This document shows, piece by piece, positions 5,213 through 44,969 of a stretch of 48,695 nucleotides of DNA (position 1 is the stretch's first letter; each line of letters starts with the position of its first letter). A program made the position numbers and the translations under genes. The stretch spans positions 1 to 48,695 of the IMG/VR virus record IMGVR_UViG_3300039098_000102, one strand, 5' to 3'. This DNA is from a virus. Under the pieces are notes generated by a model. The model saw nothing but the letters and a program-made list of their open reading frames with translations, was not told the origin of the DNA and did no database searches.

Positions 5213-5752
5213 TTACACCATCTGCTGGTCAGGCTCGTCGGTCGGACCGCCGTTGTCGTTTTCATCGTGGGTGTGGTCGTTGTACTTGGTCCGCATATTA
5301 GCCATCGATAGGCCGTCAGTCGCACACCTGTCGGTAATTTCGCCGGTTACGCGCAGGTTTCCGTTGATCTTAGTCAGGGTGGCCCCGGTTATCTCGATAG
5401 TGTTGTCATCAAGCAGTGTTATTTTAACGCCCTTGGCGTTGTAGAGACACGATTCCCCTGGATTCAGGTGAGGCCGGTATCTCGGATCATCAACGGCAAC
5501 GGCAATGCCATGGCCACGATCACCGCCGGGGAAAACCACAGCTGCCTCAGCGCCGGCCAGTGGCACAGCAGAGAGACCGAAAGGCTGAAAGTACTGAACC
5601 CTGCCACGTAGTTCGCCGGCCAAAAGTGAAACCTGCAGTTCCTGTATGCCAGGCGCGTCAGAAACGGCACGCACAACGGCTCTGCCGATTGATAGCATGA
5701 TGCGGTGGTGCAATGGGCGCAGCATTCTGCGGATAGCGGAAAGGGTATCCAT
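5213..5752 (-). CDS. Baseplate assembly protein V / spike (Mu gp45)
   Basis: 179 aa of the Mu gp45 / gpV family, the central spike hub. The N-terminus LRPLHHRIMLSIGRAVV, the GRVQYFQPFG segment and the GGDRGHGIAVAVDDPRYRP region match the family; the C-terminal beta repeats and NDHTHDE (metal-binding His) fit the spike tip. I start at the ATG at 5752 by analogy with family members. The frame is open to a TTG at 5788, but neither start has a good Shine-Dalgarno. The preceding baseplate gene, gp44, is 3.4 kb away because of the cargo island. Confidence 0.87.
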   Translation of the reverse strand: MDTLSAIRRMLRPLHHRIMLSIGRAVVRAVSDAPGIQELQVSLLAGELRGRVQYFQPFGLSAVPLAGAEAAVVFPGGDRGHGIAVAVDDPRYRPHLNPGESCLYNAKGVKITLLDDNTIEITGATLTKINGNLRVTGEITDRCATDGLSMANMRTKYNDHTHDENDNGGPTDEPDQQMV

Positions 5753-5808
5753 TGGGGCTATTGTCGGCTGGCGGGTTGGGTTTTTCAACCCCTTGGGGGA
5801 ATGGTCGC

Positions 5809-5851
5809 TTGCCTTTGGGCGCTCGCTGCTGTATTAAATAGTGCTAAATTA
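5809..5851 (+). promoter_or_regulatory. Plus-strand cargo promoter 1 with operator-like motif
   Basis: -35 TTGCCT (5809-5814), 17-bp spacer, -10 TATTAA (5832-5837), then ATAGTGCTAAATTA at 5838-5851 over the expected transcription start. The promoter of the K+-channel gene at 8165-8207 has the same spacing and nearly the same downstream motif. TAGTGCTA is itself palindromic, so it may be a repressor site. Confidence 0.6.
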
Positions 5852-5885
5852 GAGCAAGCAAAATTCACGGACAGGGAGGGACACC

Positions 5886-6245
5886 ATGCACATCTCGGTT
5901 AAGACAAAAAGCAGCGACCCTGGCAAATATTACGTGGTTGACTTCATCAAGAAGAACGGCCTGCTGCGAGTGGCGTGCAGCTGCAGGGCTGGGGAGCTTG
6001 GCCAGATGTGCAAGCACAAAGCTGCCCTCTTGCGTGGTGATGCGTCTATGCTGTTTGACCCGGGCGATGATGTTGATTTGTTGCAGGCGTGGCAAGCCGT
6101 CAATGAGACAGTCATCCCGACAAAACTGGCAGAACTAGACCGTTCTCTGGCAAAAATAGAAAAGGAAAAAAAGAGACTGAGCGCTGACAGTAAGGGACTC
6201 AAAAAGGAATTTGCCCAACTACTATATGGCGCGCCACCGGTCTGA
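5886..6245 (+). CDS. SWIM zinc-finger protein with C-terminal coiled coil
   Basis: 119 aa. Residues about 30-45 contain CSC...CKH, the CxCx(n)CxH pattern of SWIM domains, which bind zinc and contact DNA or proteins. Residues about 80-110 (LDRSLAKIEKEKKRLSADS) form a charged coiled coil. GGGAGG lies six bases before the ATG at 5886. It is transcribed against the tail operon from a promoter resembling that of the K+-channel gene, as expected for a prophage-expressed cargo gene. The molecular role is unknown. Confidence 0.8.
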   Translation: MHISVKTKSSDPGKYYVVDFIKKNGLLRVACSCRAGELGQMCKHKAALLRGDASMLFDPGDDVDLLQAWQAVNETVIPTKLAELDRSLAKIEKEKKRLSADSKGLKKEFAQLLYGAPPV

Positions 6246-6280
6246 TCGCCTCCCATACTGCGGGTTGTTGTTCTGGTGGT

Positions 6281-6313
6281 AGGCGGATGTGAGGCGGATG
6301 TGAGGCGGATGAG
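6281..6313. repeat. Tandem 11-bp repeat, three copies
   Basis: Two copies of AGGCGGATGTG plus one variant (AGGCGGATGAG) in the gap between the convergent SWIM-protein and ImmA genes. Probably a slippage product; no function is visible. Confidence 0.85.
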
Positions 6314-6376
6314 CGGGCGGGCTTGGGATTCGGAGGCTGGGACGACACCAATTGGTGCCAAGTTGTGACCACATAA

Positions 6377-6405
6377 AAAGAAAAAGGCCCCGGCTGTCCA
6401 GGGCC
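6377..6405 (-). terminator. Rho-independent terminator of the XRE-ImmA operon
   Basis: Read leftward: stem GGCCC / GGGCC around a loop of about ten bases, followed by TTTTTCTTTTTA. It lies just beyond the stop of the ImmA-like gene and ends the leftward cargo operon before the convergent SWIM gene. Confidence 0.8.
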
Positions 6406-6412
6406 CTTCGGA

Positions 6413-7045
6413 CTAACTCCGCATATAAGGAGCTAACAATTTATCCGTTATGATTCTTTTTGCTATTACCTCTTGTGATACCTCAAAAATAGGCGCCAGG
6501 GCTTCGGAAATCATATCCATCGCGACGTTGACAAGCTCAGGATGTTTGTCAATAGGCCCCCAAGAACCCTCGATTTTCCGCTCTACTTCACCGAAATGAT
6601 TTAAAAAAGCGGTTCGCAGTTCTTGCCGTGGCGCCAGCAGGAAAGCGCCAAACTGTGGCCCTTGTCGCTCCAAGGCTTTGTACGTGTAAGGATCCAATTC
6701 CTCGAGAAACTGTTTCCAGTCCGCCACGCAGCCAAACTGAACATCATCAAAAAGATGCTTATGCAACTCAAAATGGCCAAGTTCATGCGCAATAGTGAAG
6801 CGGAACCGGTTTACTCGCTGCTTGAAAATATAGTCATCTACATAAATTGATTTCAAGTCAGAGCTTAAATGCCCTTCAACCTCAAAATGCTCTTGTAATC
6901 CTGGGATAGTGACGATTTCGAGGCCAAGATCTCTTTCAGCGATAAGATCTATAGGCACAGGAAGAGATCTGCCTGGATGATAGTGGTCTAAAAATACATC
7001 AGCTGCATTACATATTTCATCATCACTCAACCACTTTATTTCCAC
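6413..7045 (-). CDS. ImmA/IrrE-family zinc metallopeptidase
   Basis: 210 aa. FTIAHELGHFELHKH carries the HExxH zinc-protease motif (His87, Glu88, His91) in the ImmA/IrrE context. In known systems such proteases cleave or inactivate a partner XRE repressor. Here the partner gene lies directly upstream and the GTG start overlaps its stop (TAGTG) behind GGAGGG, so the two are translationally coupled. Possible roles are control of a cargo promoter or induction, or a toxin-antitoxin-like pair; context does not decide. Confidence 0.85.
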   Translation of the reverse strand: MEIKWLSDDEICNAADVFLDHYHPGRSLPVPIDLIAERDLGLEIVTIPGLQEHFEVEGHLSSDLKSIYVDDYIFKQRVNRFRFTIAHELGHFELHKHLFDDVQFGCVADWKQFLEELDPYTYKALERQGPQFGAFLLAPRQELRTAFLNHFGEVERKIEGSWGPIDKHPELVNVAMDMISEALAPIFEVSQEVIAKRIITDKLLAPYMRS

Positions 7046-7437
7046 TAAGCCCTCCGAATCAGCTCTGCAAGAGTGTCAAGTTTTTCGGAGTCCACCTTCC
7101 CTCCGCGCAACGTACGGAATACGATCGGCAGCTTTTTAACCAGCTCTGCGTCTGACAAAAGGTACGATGGGAGTTCCCCATTGCAGCAGGCAGCTAGATC
7201 AAAGTATTGATACCAATCCTCAGAATCTTCTTCAATATCGAGACATTTTGCAAGATTTTCTAAGCGGTCTCTCGACTGCGGAACTTTGTACAAACCCCTT
7301 TCCAACTTACTGATGTTGCCAGGATCTAGCCCATGTTCGGTACAAAACCCTCGTAGAGACATTCCTTGTTTAAGTCTAAAGTTTTTTACAAATTCTCCAA
7401 AATTCAGCAATGCGTCCCTTCTTACTTTTTCCTCCAT
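7045..7437 (-). CDS. XRE-family transcriptional regulator, partner of ImmA
   Basis: 130 aa. Residues about 14-60 form a lambda-repressor-type HTH (FRLKQGMSLRGFCTEHGLD, then GNISKLERG as recognition helix region). The C-terminal half is helical and may be the ImmA target. I use the ATG at 7437 because GAGGGGG is five bases upstream and the HTH begins right after it; the longer frame to 7608 would translate through the operator array. It probably represses its own promoter through the palindromes at 7540-7606. Confidence 0.83.
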   Translation of the reverse strand: MEEKVRRDALLNFGEFVKNFRLKQGMSLRGFCTEHGLDPGNISKLERGLYKVPQSRDRLENLAKCLDIEEDSEDWYQYFDLAACCNGELPSYLLSDAELVKKLPIVFRTLRGGKVDSEKLDTLAELIRRA

Positions 7438-7539
7438 GTCTGCCCCCTCGTTTTCCCTCCTGAATGGTTGTTTCTCATTCCAATCACAAGCAAAACATAG
7501 CAACGTCGTCGGACAGACAATCTTCCTGTCAAGCCGACC

Positions 7540-7606
7540 AACATATGATGTTGCGTTAGTGTTGGCAAGCCACACCAACGCTCTGTTGGTGAACTCTACC
7601 AACACC
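7540..7606. promoter_or_regulatory. Operator array upstream of the XRE-ImmA operon
   Basis: A dense set of palindromes: CAACAT-ATG-ATGTTG at 7540-7554, then alternating half-sites GTTGG (7561), CCAAC (7575), GTTGG (7585), CCAAC (7599). Perfect 7-bp arm pairs include CACCAAC-gctct-GTTGGTG and TGTTGGT-gaactct-ACCAACA. Overlapping alternate pairings of this kind suit cooperative binding of an HTH dimer, most likely the adjacent XRE protein. Confidence 0.75.
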
Positions 7607-7718
7607 ATGGGTGCATTTCAAGTAAAAACTGGAAACATTATCATTTTTCCCTTTTAGCGATTGCTCTGCCAGCGGAGCCCAAACCTGTCCATAGATTCCG
7701 GCACAGACAACCTCTCCA

Positions 7719-8153
7719 TCACTCCCACTTCGGCTTCTTGCCGCCGTCATACGGTTTCGCCAGACCCATGGCGATCAGCTCTTTTCCCAGGTCACGACCG
7801 TCCACGTAAACGTCGGCAACAATCCGGAAATATTTCCCGCGCCGCATGTTCCGCAGGACGATCTCGCTCCCCTCGCGCAGCCTCTGCACTGTGTATTGCT
7901 TCGCCTTCCGCGCCAGGGATTTTATCTCCGGTCTATTGTCCCTCATTTCCGGCGTGTCTATGCCGTTGATGCGGATGCCGATTCGCTCACCAGAAATGGC
8001 AGGATAACCCTGGATGTTGCAGCGGAACGTGTCCCCATCATAGATGCTGGTCACTTCGGAAACAACGGCATCGCCATACATCTTTGGGGCTGCCAGGGCG
8101 GCTGTAGAGAAAAACAGGGCAGCGAAAAGAACCAACAACCGGACGGGCTTCAT
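7719..8153 (-). CDS. Secreted staphylococcal-nuclease-like thermonuclease
   Basis: 144 aa. A Sec signal peptide ends after about residue 21 (STAALA). The SNase fold follows with the active-site set in order: YDGDTF (Asp41), RINGIDTPE (Arg61, Asp66, Glu69) and KYFRIVADVY (Arg110), corresponding to Asp21, Arg35, Asp40, Glu43 and Arg87 of the staphylococcal enzyme. It should cut DNA/RNA outside the cytoplasm with Ca2+. AGGAGG precedes the ATG. Divergent from the K+-channel gene within the cargo island; in a lysogen it might degrade incoming or released DNA. Confidence 0.9.
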   Translation of the reverse strand: MKPVRLLVLFAALFFSTAALAAPKMYGDAVVSEVTSIYDGDTFRCNIQGYPAISGERIGIRINGIDTPEMRDNRPEIKSLARKAKQYTVQRLREGSEIVLRNMRRGKYFRIVADVYVDGRDLGKELIAMGLAKPYDGGKKPKWE

Positions 8154-8164
8154 TGACGACCTCC

Positions 8165-8207
8165 TTGCGAAATCATGGCGGGCAGTGTATTAGTTAGCAC
8201 TAAATTA
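8165..8207 (+). promoter_or_regulatory. Plus-strand cargo promoter 2 with operator-like motif
   Basis: -35 TTGCGA (8165-8170), 17-bp spacer, -10 TATTAG (8188-8193), then TTAGCACTAAATTA at 8194-8207. Geometry matches the promoter of the SWIM-protein gene, and 11 of 14 downstream positions are identical at the same offset. It drives the K+-channel gene. Confidence 0.6.
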
Positions 8208-8226
8208 TTCTTCTGTCGAGGTCCCA

Positions 8227-8943
8227 ATGGATATTAAATCAATCGTTGAGCAGAGCGACACAACCGCTGGCAAGGTTTTTGACCTGACAATTCAGGCTCT
8301 TATCGTCGTTTCGCTGGTTTCGTTTTCGATCGAAACCCTCCCGGACCTATCCGAAGGCACCCGTCGTCTCCTGCGTCTCATCGAAGTTGGCACCGTGGCT
8401 CTTTTTACCGCTGAATATCTCGTGCGACTCGTCGTGTCGGACCGGCCACTGTTGTTCGTTTTTAGCTGGCTTGGGGCCATTGACCTCCTGGCTATAGTGC
8501 CTTTTTACCTGTCTACAGGAATTGACTTGCGGGCAATCCGGGCTGCTCGGCTATTACGCTTGGTGCGTGCAATCAAGCTGCTACGATACAGCCAAGCGAT
8601 TAGAAGGTTTCACAGGGCGCTAGTGATCGCCAAAGAGGAGATGGTCCTGTTTTTCGGTCTGACATTGTTTGTCTTATATTTTGCGGCTGTAGGAATATAT
8701 TTTTTTGAGCATGATGCGCAGCCCGAAGCGTTCTCTTCCGTTTTTAACAGTCTGTGGTGGGCTGTCACTACACTCACAACAGTTGGGTACGGAGACTCTT
8801 ACCCTGTGACGGTCGGCGGCAGGATTTTCACTTTCTGCATTCTTATGGTTGGCCTTGGAGTCGTCGCGGTTCCAACGGGGCTGCTTTCATCTGCATTGTC
8901 GAAAGCGAGGGACGAAGAGAGCGAAACGGAAGGGGATCGATGA
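8227..8943 (+). CDS. Voltage-gated potassium-channel-like protein
   Basis: 238 aa with six predicted membrane segments. S1 is at about 17-37, S2 about 52-70, S3 about 82-95. S4 at 102-120 has basic residues at every third position (R102, R105, R108, R111, R114, K117, R120), the mark of a voltage sensor. S5 is about 138-160, and the pore loop carries the K+ filter TTVGYGD (about 184-190). S6 has a VPTG gate-like hinge near 215. Full length for a KvAP-type subunit, so probably functional. GAGGT precedes the ATG. It is transcribed against the tail genes from its own promoter. Its role for the phage is unknown; an effect on host membrane potential or on superinfection is conceivable. Confidence 0.93.
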   Translation: MDIKSIVEQSDTTAGKVFDLTIQALIVVSLVSFSIETLPDLSEGTRRLLRLIEVGTVALFTAEYLVRLVVSDRPLLFVFSWLGAIDLLAIVPFYLSTGIDLRAIRAARLLRLVRAIKLLRYSQAIRRFHRALVIAKEEMVLFFGLTLFVLYFAAVGIYFFEHDAQPEAFSSVFNSLWWAVTTLTTVGYGDSYPVTVGGRIFTFCILMVGLGVVAVPTGLLSSALSKARDEESETEGDR

Positions 8944-9050
8944 ATAAGCTATATGGCAAAAGAGGCCCAGAGCGCTGTCACGGTTCCAAAGGAGACCGCC
9001 CTGCCCTCACGGCACAGGGACGCTCCAGGCCAGTCGTAGGCCTGGAATAG
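8940..9050 (+). CDS. Possible 36-aa basic peptide downstream of the channel
   Basis: The ATG at 8940 overlaps the channel stop (ATGA) and has AAGGGGA upstream, so it could be translationally coupled. The product is basic and low in complexity, with no recognisable domain; it may be chance. Confidence 0.3.
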   Translation: MNKLYGKRGPERCHGSKGDRPALTAQGRSRPVVGLE

Positions 9051-9152
9051 TGCGCACTGGAAAAACCCGTCTCCGGGCGCACTTCAGCGCGCCCCCTCGA
9101 ATATCGCGAGCGGACGGCTCCTTTGGAATTTTGACCCTTAAATATTAACGGT

Positions 9153-9200
9153 GGCTCAATAGAAAGTCAAGGCAATATAAATGCCTGAAATCATTGAGCC
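9153..9200. repeat. Nested inverted repeats between K+-channel and gp44
   Basis: Outer arms GGCTCAAT (9153-9160) and ATTGAGCC (9193-9200) enclose an inner hairpin AGGCA / TGCCT (9170-9174 / 9182-9186). The stretch 9051-9221 has no gene I can support. The structure lies 3' of gp44, where leftward late transcription enters the cargo island, and 3' of the rightward channel gene. No U-tract follows in either direction, so it is not a classical terminator. Confidence 0.6.
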
Positions 9201-9221
9201 GATACGAGTGCAGCAGAATCG

Positions 9222-10277
9222 TTACCCAACATCACCCCACGGGTCCGCCGCCACTGGTTTCTCAGGCTCAGGCAAAAACGCATCTTTCCGGCGCAGCGTC
9301 AGCTCGGTCTGCATGCCACCGGATTCGTCTAGGGAATGGGTCAGTTCAGAGATCAGCAGGTCACCGGACACCCGCAGGTACGGCAGATCAACAGATACGA
9401 GCGAATTCACCGGCCACAACTCACCATTCCCCTGCCGCCACCCTTGGACCGTAACGGATACGGTGACAGATCGGGCCGCCCTGACTGTGGCCTCCCATTG
9501 GGCACGCTTTCTGGCTGACGCGATGTCAACGGCAGACTCGGCAAGGATGATCAGCGTGCGGCCGGCTGTTGCCCCTGCATCTGTGGCTCTGGCCTCGACT
9601 GCCGAGGCCTGTTCGGCGTCGAGAAAATCGCTTGACGGTTGACTGCCCCGCACGATGTATTTCCGATATCGGTCGGTGGTGTCGTTGGTCAGGGCCGCCG
9701 ATTTGACATTTTCGCCCTGCACCAATGCTGTGCTGCACCTGGTCTTTCCAGTTGAGGTGAGAACCAGCCCCCCCTGCCCGTCTGCCACTGGCAGCACGCC
9801 TCGCAACCTGCAGGCCCGGTCGAGTGCCTCGAACGCGGTTTCGCCTGGTTGAAGCTTGAACGTCTCAAAGGCTGCGCCAATATCCGTGGCGGTCGTTACA
9901 GTAACACCGAAGGGCTTGGCCAGAATCGCTGCAAGTCGGTTCAGTCGGATGCCGGACCATTCGCCAGGGCTGTGGTTCGCGGAGCAGTCCACCATCTGCC
10001 CGGTGCGGTCCCTGCCAGTAACGGCGCTCTCATGGTTCGCAGAGTCGAACCGCGGGGCAGCCATATCAACCAAGCCGGTCAACACGGTTTCCCCGCCGAT
10101 AGAAAAGGAGCACTCAGCCCCTGGCGGTATCGGCCAGGCAGACTGCTGGCCGGGCCAGCGGTCGGTAAGCGACAGCCGGAAGCGTCCGGCGATGGACTCA
10201 ATGGACCGGGTCACGGACACGGAGGTCCAGCCGGCATATTCACGACCTCCAACGACCAGCTTGACGGCATCAGACAT
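9222..10277 (-). CDS. Mu gp44-like baseplate hub / tail protein P
   Basis: 351 aa of the Mu gp44 (gpP) family, related to gpD-type hub proteins. It starts AVKLVVGGREYAGWTSV and continues with FRLSLTDRWPG and the C-terminal SVDLPYLRVSGDLLISEL typical of the hub fold. It completes the central baseplate with gp45. GAGG precedes the ATG, which overlaps the stop of the gp43-like gene. It should be followed directly by gp45 but is separated from it by the 3.4-kb cargo island. Confidence 0.9.
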   Translation of the reverse strand: MSDAVKLVVGGREYAGWTSVSVTRSIESIAGRFRLSLTDRWPGQQSAWPIPPGAECSFSIGGETVLTGLVDMAAPRFDSANHESAVTGRDRTGQMVDCSANHSPGEWSGIRLNRLAAILAKPFGVTVTTATDIGAAFETFKLQPGETAFEALDRACRLRGVLPVADGQGGLVLTSTGKTRCSTALVQGENVKSAALTNDTTDRYRKYIVRGSQPSSDFLDAEQASAVEARATDAGATAGRTLIILAESAVDIASARKRAQWEATVRAARSVTVSVTVQGWRQGNGELWPVNSLVSVDLPYLRVSGDLLISELTHSLDESGGMQTELTLRRKDAFLPEPEKPVAADPWGDVG

Positions 10278-43189: not shown

Positions 43190-43624
43190 ATGGCGAAACG
43201 AAGCGCAGGATACAAGATGGCGATCAACAGTCTGGCGAGGATGATCCGGGACAAGTACGGAACCCCGACGGAATTCCACCGGCAGTCAGGCATCCAGGTA
43301 GCGAACTACACGATAGCCCGAGCCCTGGACAACTCCCTCGACTGCCCGGCTCTGCCGACAGTTGTTCAGATCGCCGCCTATGTAGGCATGAAGAACAATG
43401 AAATCAGTGAAATGCTGACCCAAATGGGAGACAGTTTCTGGGCGCGCCTGATCTCCGGAGAAGGGCCCTCGCTGCGCGAACAGGCACTGCTTGATGCCGT
43501 GCGGACCATTACCAATAAAGATGAAAAGATGTGGAACACCCTGGCCGGAAATCTCGACTTGATGGCTAGCGCTGTCGGCGTCGATGTATCGGCGCAGTTG
43601 GCCAAGATCGGATTGCAGAAATAA
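43190..43624 (+). CDS. Putative phage repressor (HTH, no LexA-type peptidase domain)
   Basis: 144 aa. An N-terminal helical DNA-binding region (SLARMIRDKYGTPTEFHRQS, then VANYTIARALDNSLDCPALP with a following helix) resembles XRE/Cro-type HTH. The C-terminal helical part has no autocleavage site, so induction by RecA is not suggested. ATG at 43190 behind GGAG. First gene of the plus-strand repressor-integrase operon, surrounded by operator-like palindromes. The assignment comes from context plus a weak HTH pattern. Confidence 0.7.
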   Translation: MAKRSAGYKMAINSLARMIRDKYGTPTEFHRQSGIQVANYTIARALDNSLDCPALPTVVQIAAYVGMKNNEISEMLTQMGDSFWARLISGEGPSLREQALLDAVRTITNKDEKMWNTLAGNLDLMASAVGVDVSAQLAKIGLQK

Positions 43625-43646
43625 CAGCCAAAGACTGGAGGCTCCC

Positions 43647-44969
43647 ATGGCCGTCTATAAAATAGCTCGGTGCCCCGTCTGTAAATACTCCCGCGTCGCA
43701 CCCTCCCCGCAGAAGACCGCACCCCTGTGCCCGAAGACCGAACGTCACCCCGACGAATCCCCGCGCTTGGTCTATTCCGAGAAGTGGTATGTTCGAGCAG
43801 CTGGCGTTTCACAATATGCTGTCAGCCGCAAAAAATCGGAAGCAGAGGCCGAGGAAAGGAAGCTGCTTACCAACCAGGCCGAGGGCAAGTCACACCTGAA
43901 CAAAATCCCCTCAACCACATGGACTGCTGCCTCAGAGAAATTCCTCGACTGGGCCGGTCAAAACCTGACGCCCAAGGGCGCAGCCATGTACCGCAGCTGC
44001 ATAGGACGGCTCGGAAACACCTTCGGCGGCAAAAACCTTAACCGGATCACCAGCGACATGATCGAGGTCGACTATGTCGCGGAGCGTCGGGCAGAGGGCG
44101 TGAAGGACTCCACGATCAACCGGGAGATCACGACGCTGAAACGGCTGTTCTCGAAATGCGAAGAATGGCGTATGGCGTCTGCCCACGAGATCCGCAGAGT
44201 GAAGAAGCTCGACGAACCAGATCAGTGCGAGCGGTTTTATTCAGACGACGAAATTTCGAAGATACTGCAGGAATGCGAGGTCCCGATCGGGAACCGCTCG
44301 AAGGTCGGCGGCCGGCCGCCAGGACCGCACCTGAAAATGATAGTGGTGCTGGCGCTGAATACCGGCATGCGAAAAAAGAACTGCTTGCTGCTGCGACGGT
44401 CGGACATCGATTTTCCGAACCGGCAGATCCGGATCACCCTGGTCAAGAAGCGGAAGAACCGCCGGCTAACCATCCCCATGACGAAGCAGCTGCACGACGC
44501 CCTGCTGCAGTATATGAAGTCGATGCAGGTCGTGGACATGAATGGCTGGCTGTTCCCCACCCCGAAACGGAAAACAGGCGATCCGATCAAGCCCATGCGC
44601 GCCGATGCCGACTTCGGATTCGACTCGGCACTGAAACGCGCCAGGATCAAGCAGCTCGAATGCCCCGAGTGCAAGGACCTCATGGGACCACACGATCCGG
44701 AGAAGCCCCTGCCAGAATGCCCCACATGCCGCGTAACCGCACGCTGGCGCAGAGAAGAATGCTTCCACACCCTTCGCCACACATTTGCCAGCCATTGGCT
44801 GCAGCAGATGGTCGAGGCTGGCCGCGATGTTGAAGGCTGCTTGAAGATCCTGCAGGAGATCCTAGGGCACACCGATATCAAGACCACGATGCGCTACCTG
44901 CATGTGGTCGAGGACACAAAAAAACGTGCGATGGATCAGTTCTCAATCGGGGGAAGTGGCGAAGAATAG
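43647..44969 (+). CDS. Tyrosine recombinase integrase with inserted zinc ribbon
   Basis: 440 aa. The catalytic set is Arg242 (LNTGMRKKN), a Lys in VKKRKNRR (about 267-270), HTLR (His374, Arg377), His408 (LGHTDIKTT) and Tyr417 (MRYLHV). Two Cys clusters are unusual: CPVC...C near residues 9-28 and CPEC...CPTC at 339-361, inserted in the catalytic domain just before the HxxR box. The ATG at 43647 follows GGAGG and begins 23 bp after the repressor stop. It should recombine attP at 45302-45347 with a host tRNA-Arg gene. Confidence 0.94.
   Translation: MAVYKIARCPVCKYSRVAPSPQKTAPLCPKTERHPDESPRLVYSEKWYVRAAGVSQYAVSRKKSEAEAEERKLLTNQAEGKSHLNKIPSTTWTAASEKFLDWAGQNLTPKGAAMYRSCIGRLGNTFGGKNLNRITSDMIEVDYVAERRAEGVKDSTINREITTLKRLFSKCEEWRMASAHEIRRVKKLDEPDQCERFYSDDEISKILQECEVPIGNRSKVGGRPPGPHLKMIVVLALNTGMRKKNCLLLRRSDIDFPNRQIRITLVKKRKNRRLTIPMTKQLHDALLQYMKSMQVVDMNGWLFPTPKRKTGDPIKPMRADADFGFDSALKRARIKQLECPECKDLMGPHDPEKPLPECPTCRVTARWRREECFHTLRHTFASHWLQQMVEAGRDVEGCLKILQEILGHTDIKTTMRYLHVVEDTKKRAMDQFSIGGSGEE

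Follow-up and report, generated by a model that had tools for sequence, protein, structure and literature searches.

We find that what looks like a complete temperate phage carries a gene that almost certainly encodes a voltage-gated-type (Kv-type) potassium channel. The gene lies at positions 8227-8943 on the + strand of the window, the whole 48,695-nucleotide IMG/VR record that was analysed. Our preferred reading, to which we assign a probability of roughly 0.6, is that it is an intact Kv-type channel gene and a moron of a temperate phage, whose product would be made in the lysogen, open on depolarisation and release K+. The parts of this reading differ in strength. Channel activity is highly probable from the sequence features described below; expression in the lysogen, argued by analogy, is slightly favoured; that the channel acts against a second phage is possible but less likely than not.

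The reading frame begins with ATG and translates into 238 amino acids. A Shine-Dalgarno sequence, GAGGT at 8218-8222 (core GAGG 8218-8221, + strand), lies about 5 nt 5' of the start codon, as the initial annotation had stated. The protein matched the Pfam families Ion_trans (PF00520, 6.6e-35) and Ion_trans_2 (PF07885, 5.4e-17), a PHROG without a named function (phrog_7872, 2.5e-43) and, among solved channels, rat Kv2.1 (8sd3, 1.1e-25). Judged by these scores, the match of the reading frame to Kv-type channels is far beyond chance. The seven basic residues that had been claimed for S4 at three-residue spacing are all present (R102, R105, R108, R111, R114, K117 and R120; codons 8530-8586), as is the selectivity filter TTVGYGD (residues 184-190; 8776-8796). 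In the close clade these features are largely conserved, as are the charge-transfer residues of S2 and S3 (F60, E63 and D86). Nearly all aligned rows retain the filter, the S4 residues and the charge-transfer centre, although the conservation of the filter in the viral rows is partly by construction, because the filter was in the viral search pattern.

Structure prediction agreed with the claim of a complete gene with six membrane segments. The AlphaFold model, built with 33 aligned sequences, had a mean pLDDT of 91.3 and comprised S1 (residues 13-36), S2 (43-70), S3 (81-98), S4 (105-121), a linker helix (123-134), S5 (136-161), a pore helix (172-183) and S6 (196-236). When the model was compared with the PDB using Foldseek, it matched Kv1.2, Kv1.3, Kv2.1 and Kv4.2 with TM scores of up to 0.85 on the query. 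Among the predicted viral proteins of BFVD, the credible matches were weak and pore-sized (~80-150 residues), and none of them had E < 0.001. The six-helix model and the matches to Kv structures indicate a complete Kv fold, unlike the algal-virus channel Kcv. Other channel classes were considered and ruled out: a pore-only viral K+ channel of the Kcv type by the six helices rather than two, a bacterial Na+ channel (NaChBac) by the filter, which is TTVGYGD and not LESW-type, and a cyclic-nucleotide-gated or HCN channel by the lack of a C-terminal cyclic-nucleotide-binding domain. Pfam found no such domain in the protein, and S6 reaches residue 236 of 238.

The genome that carries the channel gene appears whole. 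A perfect direct repeat of 98 bp at the contig ends (1-98 and 48597-48694) joins the contig into a circle of about 48.6 kb, and the channel region therefore lies within it. The gene content, comprising a lambda-type large terminase, capsid, sheath, Mu-like baseplate genes, RecT and an integrase that marks a temperate lifestyle (43584-44969, + strand; phrog_1, 2.1e-59), looks like that of a complete temperate phage with a contractile tail. The closest annotated relatives of this phage are distant (about 46% for the terminase and about 42% for the baseplate hub gpP). A DNA search with the first 25 kb of the window against phage records gave no match, and an IMG/VR scan with the single sequence of the baseplate spike gp45 gave none either. 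We dropped an attempt to name the host from the terminase, whose matches reached only 39-47% and lay in both Gamma- and Alphaproteobacteria. One 7-kb IMG/VR contig carries a 72% identical gpP directly 3' of a Clp-like protease and a capsid gene, an odd order.

Inside this circle, the channel gene belongs to an insertion. The gpP gene (Mu gp44-like; 9222-10277, - strand) and the gp45-like gene (5213-5788, - strand; PF06890, 1.7e-25) adjoin in Mu, in Bordetella phage PBb002 and in two IMG/VR contigs. In the window they are separated by 3.4 kb (5789-9221), with gpP as the operon gene upstream of the insertion and gp45 as the one downstream. The cassette between them holds five genes, encoding a SWIM protein (+), an M78 peptidase (-), an HTH regulator (-), a staphylococcal-nuclease-like protein (-) and the channel (+). 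Its GC content is 0.50, whereas the window as a whole has 0.57; GC3 is 0.54 in the channel gene compared with about 0.7 in core genes. The separation of two genes that adjoin elsewhere, together with the low GC, supports the earlier designation of the gene as a moron, at least as a moron-like insertion. Its placement within the tail operon and antisense to the tail genes was likewise correct, since the baseplate operon is on the - strand; the gene does not stand there alone, however, but as one of five inserted genes. The record is an IMG/VR contig and the channels most similar in sequence come from cells, which might point to host contamination or a chimeric assembly. We regard this as most improbable, because the contig closes on itself around the cassette, the genes on its two sides follow one another in a single baseplate operon, and the cassette includes HTH and M78 genes typical of phages.

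The neighbours of the channel gene include a possible regulatory pair. The XRE-like HTH gene (7045-7440, - strand) matched PF13560 (6.5e-5) and PF01381 (2.9e-4), both below the curated cut-offs. We place its start near 7440 rather than at the listed reading-frame start of 7608, because paired palindromes lie in between. These are two tandem 17-bp dyads at 7562-7602, TTGGCAAGCCACACCAA and TTGGTGAACTCTACCAA, just upstream of the probable HTH start; they have no close copy elsewhere and are likely to be an operator pair of the HTH gene. The HTH gene adjoins an M78/ImmA-like metallopeptidase gene (6413-7045, - strand; PF06114, 6.3e-10; nearest PADLOC model capP, 2.4e-13), and an intrinsic-terminator-like hairpin of 12 pairs (6382-6409, - strand) ends the unit. 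HMM and family searches recognised this as the sole XRE/ImmA-type pair in the window phage, and it may therefore represent the phage's own immunity pair or else belong to the moron. The remaining two genes encode a staphylococcal-nuclease-like protein with an apparent signal peptide (7719-8153, - strand; PF00565, 1.3e-10), divergent from the channel gene, and a SWIM zinc-finger protein (5886-6245, + strand; PF04434, 2.6e-4). The latter, at the far end of the cassette, is antisense to the baseplate operon, as the channel gene is. A DNA search with the cassette against plasmids found no match.

Downstream of the channel gene lies a structured element (8977-9135), a long imperfect inverted repeat with 18-bp arms (8977-8994 and 9118-9135) and nested hairpins (fold z = -5.17), followed by TTTT. 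It had no copies in phage records, none by exact core in IMG/VR and no significant match in Rfam. The element may be a terminator, a mobile repeat or an RNA element.

The promoter that the initial annotation had assigned to the gene was not recovered. In the divergent intergenic region between the nuclease-like gene and the channel gene (8154-8226), the scan, which covers sigma-70-type sites and no other promoter types, found none on the + strand. The single + strand match within 5700-9300 lies at 8279-8306, inside the channel reading frame. An operator shared with the HTH gene at a channel promoter was considered and rejected: TTAGYRCTAA sites were not above chance, and close TTGG...CCAA dyads occur solely before the HTH gene, with none near the channel gene. 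The unrecognised promoter, the antisense position relative to the baseplate genes, an integrase about 35 kb away, HTH and M78 genes on the other strand and the lack of a nearby operator copy all weigh against our preferred reading.

The analogy that favours lysogen expression comes from relatives in other phages. An IMG/VR scan with the single channel sequence gave no matches, and a scan with an alignment query gave 122 relatives, of which the best 80 were kept. The channel had been described as rare in phages. This holds among annotated viral proteins, where BFVD offered only pore-sized matches, but not in view of the 122 IMG/VR relatives, nor of the literature, in which phage K+ channels including multi-TM ones have been published (PMC6163359, PMC9867325).

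We located HTH, S24, M78 and integrase domains around these relatives with purpose-built iterated HMMs, and asked how often the channel was flanked, on its own strand, by a repressor at most 1.5 kb upstream and by an integrase at most 2.5 kb downstream. This order was present in 27 of the best 80 relatives, a count that includes related sequences, compared with a mean of 1.4 and a maximum of 6 in 500 random placements within the same loci. Clustering at 90% identity left it present in 27 of 75. When sequences were clustered by single linkage at 60% identity, 5 of 34 clusters showed the order (null mean 0.29, maximum 3), whereas HTH proximity alone (9 of 34) did not exceed its null maximum of 10. 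When annotated phages were added to the IMG/VR set, 38 loci had a same-strand repressor-type gene upstream of the channel; 30 of them also had an integrase downstream. The repressor-type gene and the channel were at most 60 bp apart in 19 of the 38, several pairs overlapping by 4 bp. Across loci L045-L124 the repressor-channel-integrase order is recurrent, with genes often overlapping or near-abutting. Its presence in several clades of the tree argues for repeated placement. We found no description of this recurrent order in the limited set of literature searched. Because 27 of the best 80 viral relatives sit between a same-strand repressor and integrase, we argue by analogy that the window channel may be expressed in the lysogen, although the window itself has its HTH gene on the opposite strand and its integrase far off.

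Annotated examples include Lactobacillus phage PLE2 (HTH, metalloprotease, channel, integrase), JNU_P5 (Lactobacillus) and Dulem virus 33. On an Enterococcus phage contig (L043, 3405-6729) the order, by reading, is HTH, M78, lipoprotein, channel and serine recombinase; the lipoprotein is reminiscent of exclusion lipoproteins of dairy phages. Two records named as phages, L038 and L039, look like host chromosome around the channel and were left out as instances of phage carriage: Acinetobacter phage MD-2021a has the host-like genes tamB and acnB beside the channel, and the Listeria phage LM 4-11-1 clones have, by reading, host-type genes around it.

The placement of relatives in lysogeny modules also bears on whether the gene serves the lytic phase, or is an antisense RNA unit that tunes the baseplate operon. 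A gene that faces the late operon from the other strand, between gpP and gp45, would suit either role. Coding constraint and conservation at the protein level, in addition to the lysogeny-module relatives, make this explanation quite improbable.

Closely related channels are also found in cells. In a genome collection, the closest cellular relatives were 49-64% identical over the full length and came from Thiotrichaceae, a planctomycete, Gammaproteobacteria and Bacteroidota. A relative of at least 50% identity was present in 9 of 369 gammaproteobacterial genomes and in 15 of 296 genomes of a Bacteroidota sample. A tree of 135 channels requires no fewer than 17 changes of the phage/cell label, 5 of them forced by well-supported branches, which indicates repeated movement of the gene between phages and cells. 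The window channel falls in a group of 12 rows (support 90, not starred) made up mostly of gammaproteobacterial chromosomal channels, together with the prophage channels L045-L047 and L050. Its nearest phage relative by tree path is the 62% identical channel of a P2-like prophage (L047), where an HTH gene precedes the channel by 56 bp.

Related channels on viral contigs are under purifying selection, with dN/dS of 0.07-0.13 in the five pairs without synonymous saturation. Given the retained residues and the low dN/dS, the related channels appear to be functional, of the voltage-gated type and subject to selection; by family resemblance they would conduct K+ on depolarisation. These data bear on a further alternative, namely that the window gene is a recently acquired host gene and a passenger without a selected role in the phage. 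The low-GC cassette and the single-sequence scan, which yielded no close viral relative of the window copy, are consistent with it. We nevertheless consider it unlikely, since the reading frame is intact, every functional residue is present and related phage channels are constrained.

The chromosomal contexts permit a role in host fitness, in which the channel would serve K+ or osmotic homeostasis or electrical signalling in the lysogen, unrelated to other phages. Most of the 13 neighbourhoods of close relatives that we inspected were ordinary, and some are conserved, one such setting being next to a gene for an Obg-like GTPase. Because close relatives (50-61% identical) also occupy ordinary chromosomal neighbourhoods, a phage-specific role is not required. 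The presence of close relatives as chromosomal genes in many Pseudomonadota and Bacteroidota, with voltage-gating residues kept, favours such lysogenic conversion; the placement of phage copies next to repressor and integrase genes is just as compatible with lysogen expression and does not discriminate. We hold this role to be possible, but on the doubtful side.

Superinfection exclusion or abortive infection is an equally tentative explanation. An incoming phage would depolarise the membrane, the channel would open, and K+ loss or altered potential would stop the infection, making the channel a functional counterpart of lambda RexB, though Kv gating would repolarise rather than depolarise. 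Lysogeny modules, where the viral relatives recur, are the site of known exclusion genes. In a gammaproteobacterial MAG (L009, 5287-14508), a 56% identical channel has IetS on one side and, on the other, a full Shango operon whose SngA gene follows after 25 bp (SngA 6.9e-86, SngB 3.1e-183, SngC 1.6e-269), and at another locus (L010, 7992-9612) the channel overlaps a PDC-S48-like gene (7.6e-12) by 8 bp. RexB-type channels do protect lysogens (PMC6426596, PMC12894663). The idea in the initial annotation, that the gene may alter lysogen membrane potential in response to a second phage, gains indirect support from the recurrent lysogeny-module placement and from the Shango neighbour. Against exclusion, PADLOC gave no match for the channel itself, close chromosomal relatives lie mostly outside defence islands, and no conserved partner gene that could act as a trigger was found beside the phage channels except repressor-type regulators and the integrase, which any lysogeny module would be expected to contain. 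The link to defence is thus sporadic, because the two loci stand against mostly ordinary contexts; defence status for the whole clade, considered after the Shango case, was rejected on the same ground. At a third locus (L004, 642-2177), the channel is abutted by a protein weakly like the PADLOC candidate PDC-S48. This protein and its PDC-S48-like counterpart at L010 have no detectable relation to each other.

Kv channels open on depolarisation and K+ leaves, so that the membrane is driven toward the K+ equilibrium potential. Under our preferred reading of a lysogen-made moron channel, transcription would start within 8154-8226, at a promoter that is weak or not of the sigma-70 type, and four copies of the protein would form one channel in the host inner membrane. 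Depolarisation, whether caused by the DNA of an incoming phage, an ionophore, a holin or another agent, would move S4 and open the pore; K+ would exit, the membrane would return toward the K+ equilibrium potential and internal K+ would fall. A lysogen would in this way counter or track a depolarisation that phage DNA entry or other stress brings about, and pay for it in K+. The lysogen might benefit from electrical stability or from an infection-blocking loss of K+.

The recurrence of related channels beside dormancy genes suggests that dormant viruses use channels to govern the host cell electrically. A broader and speculative proposal is that Kv channels are widespread, largely undescribed prophage genes, often co-transcribed with the repressor, through which dormant phages sense host depolarisation and block or time other infections; the window gene would then be an outlying member beside its HTH/M78 pair. 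If this is true, voltage is a signal that prophages read or control. With this recurrent arrangement, a role during dormancy can be tested directly, and phage biology is connected with bacterial membrane-potential dynamics and with exclusion systems of the RexAB kind. Reports of phage channels that have a complete voltage sensor are confined to isolated cases without an assigned function, and our literature search for a described class of prophage Kv channels returned single cases only.

Compared with known systems, the window channel shares the six-helix Ion_trans fold, TTVGYGD and the S4 charges with KvAP, Kv2.1 and Kv4, the best TM scores being against Kv4.2 and Kv2.1 structures. It differs from them in being phage-carried, in its length of only 238 amino acids and in lacking T1 or any other cytoplasmic domain. 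The chromosomal 'ion transporter' genes of Gammaproteobacteria, Planctomycetes and Bacteroidota (L002-L012) are alike over the full length, yet cellular and mostly in ordinary contexts. The channels of P2-like prophages (L045-L047), 59-62% identical and in the same tree group, lie between integrase and repressor, whereas that of the window lies in a baseplate operon. Algal-virus Kcv has the K+ filter in common, but only two helices and no voltage sensor. Lambda RexB and Sbash gp31 (PMC6426596) are likewise prophage-encoded membrane channels thought to change host membrane potential. These channels, for which defence has been shown, have four helices, need a RexA-type partner and, being depolarising, are parallels to the window channel in function only. 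We ruled out a RexB-type identity for the window channel given its six-TM Ion_trans fold and the lack of a RexA-like match, by Pfam and PHROGs, among the other four cassette genes. A six-TM channel is annotated in Halorubrum virus Humcor1. Greiner et al. 2018 surveyed phage K+ channels, including that of Lactobacillus phage PLE (PMC6163359), and a KQT-like channel was noted in a prophage of Oenococcus sicerae (PMC9867325); both are, like the window gene, voltage-gated-type channels of temperate phages. PLE2 also has HTH and metalloprotease genes beside its channel, although that channel is only about 26% identical and is placed by the integrase. Phage K+ channels were therefore already known, and the window gene is another member of this known group.
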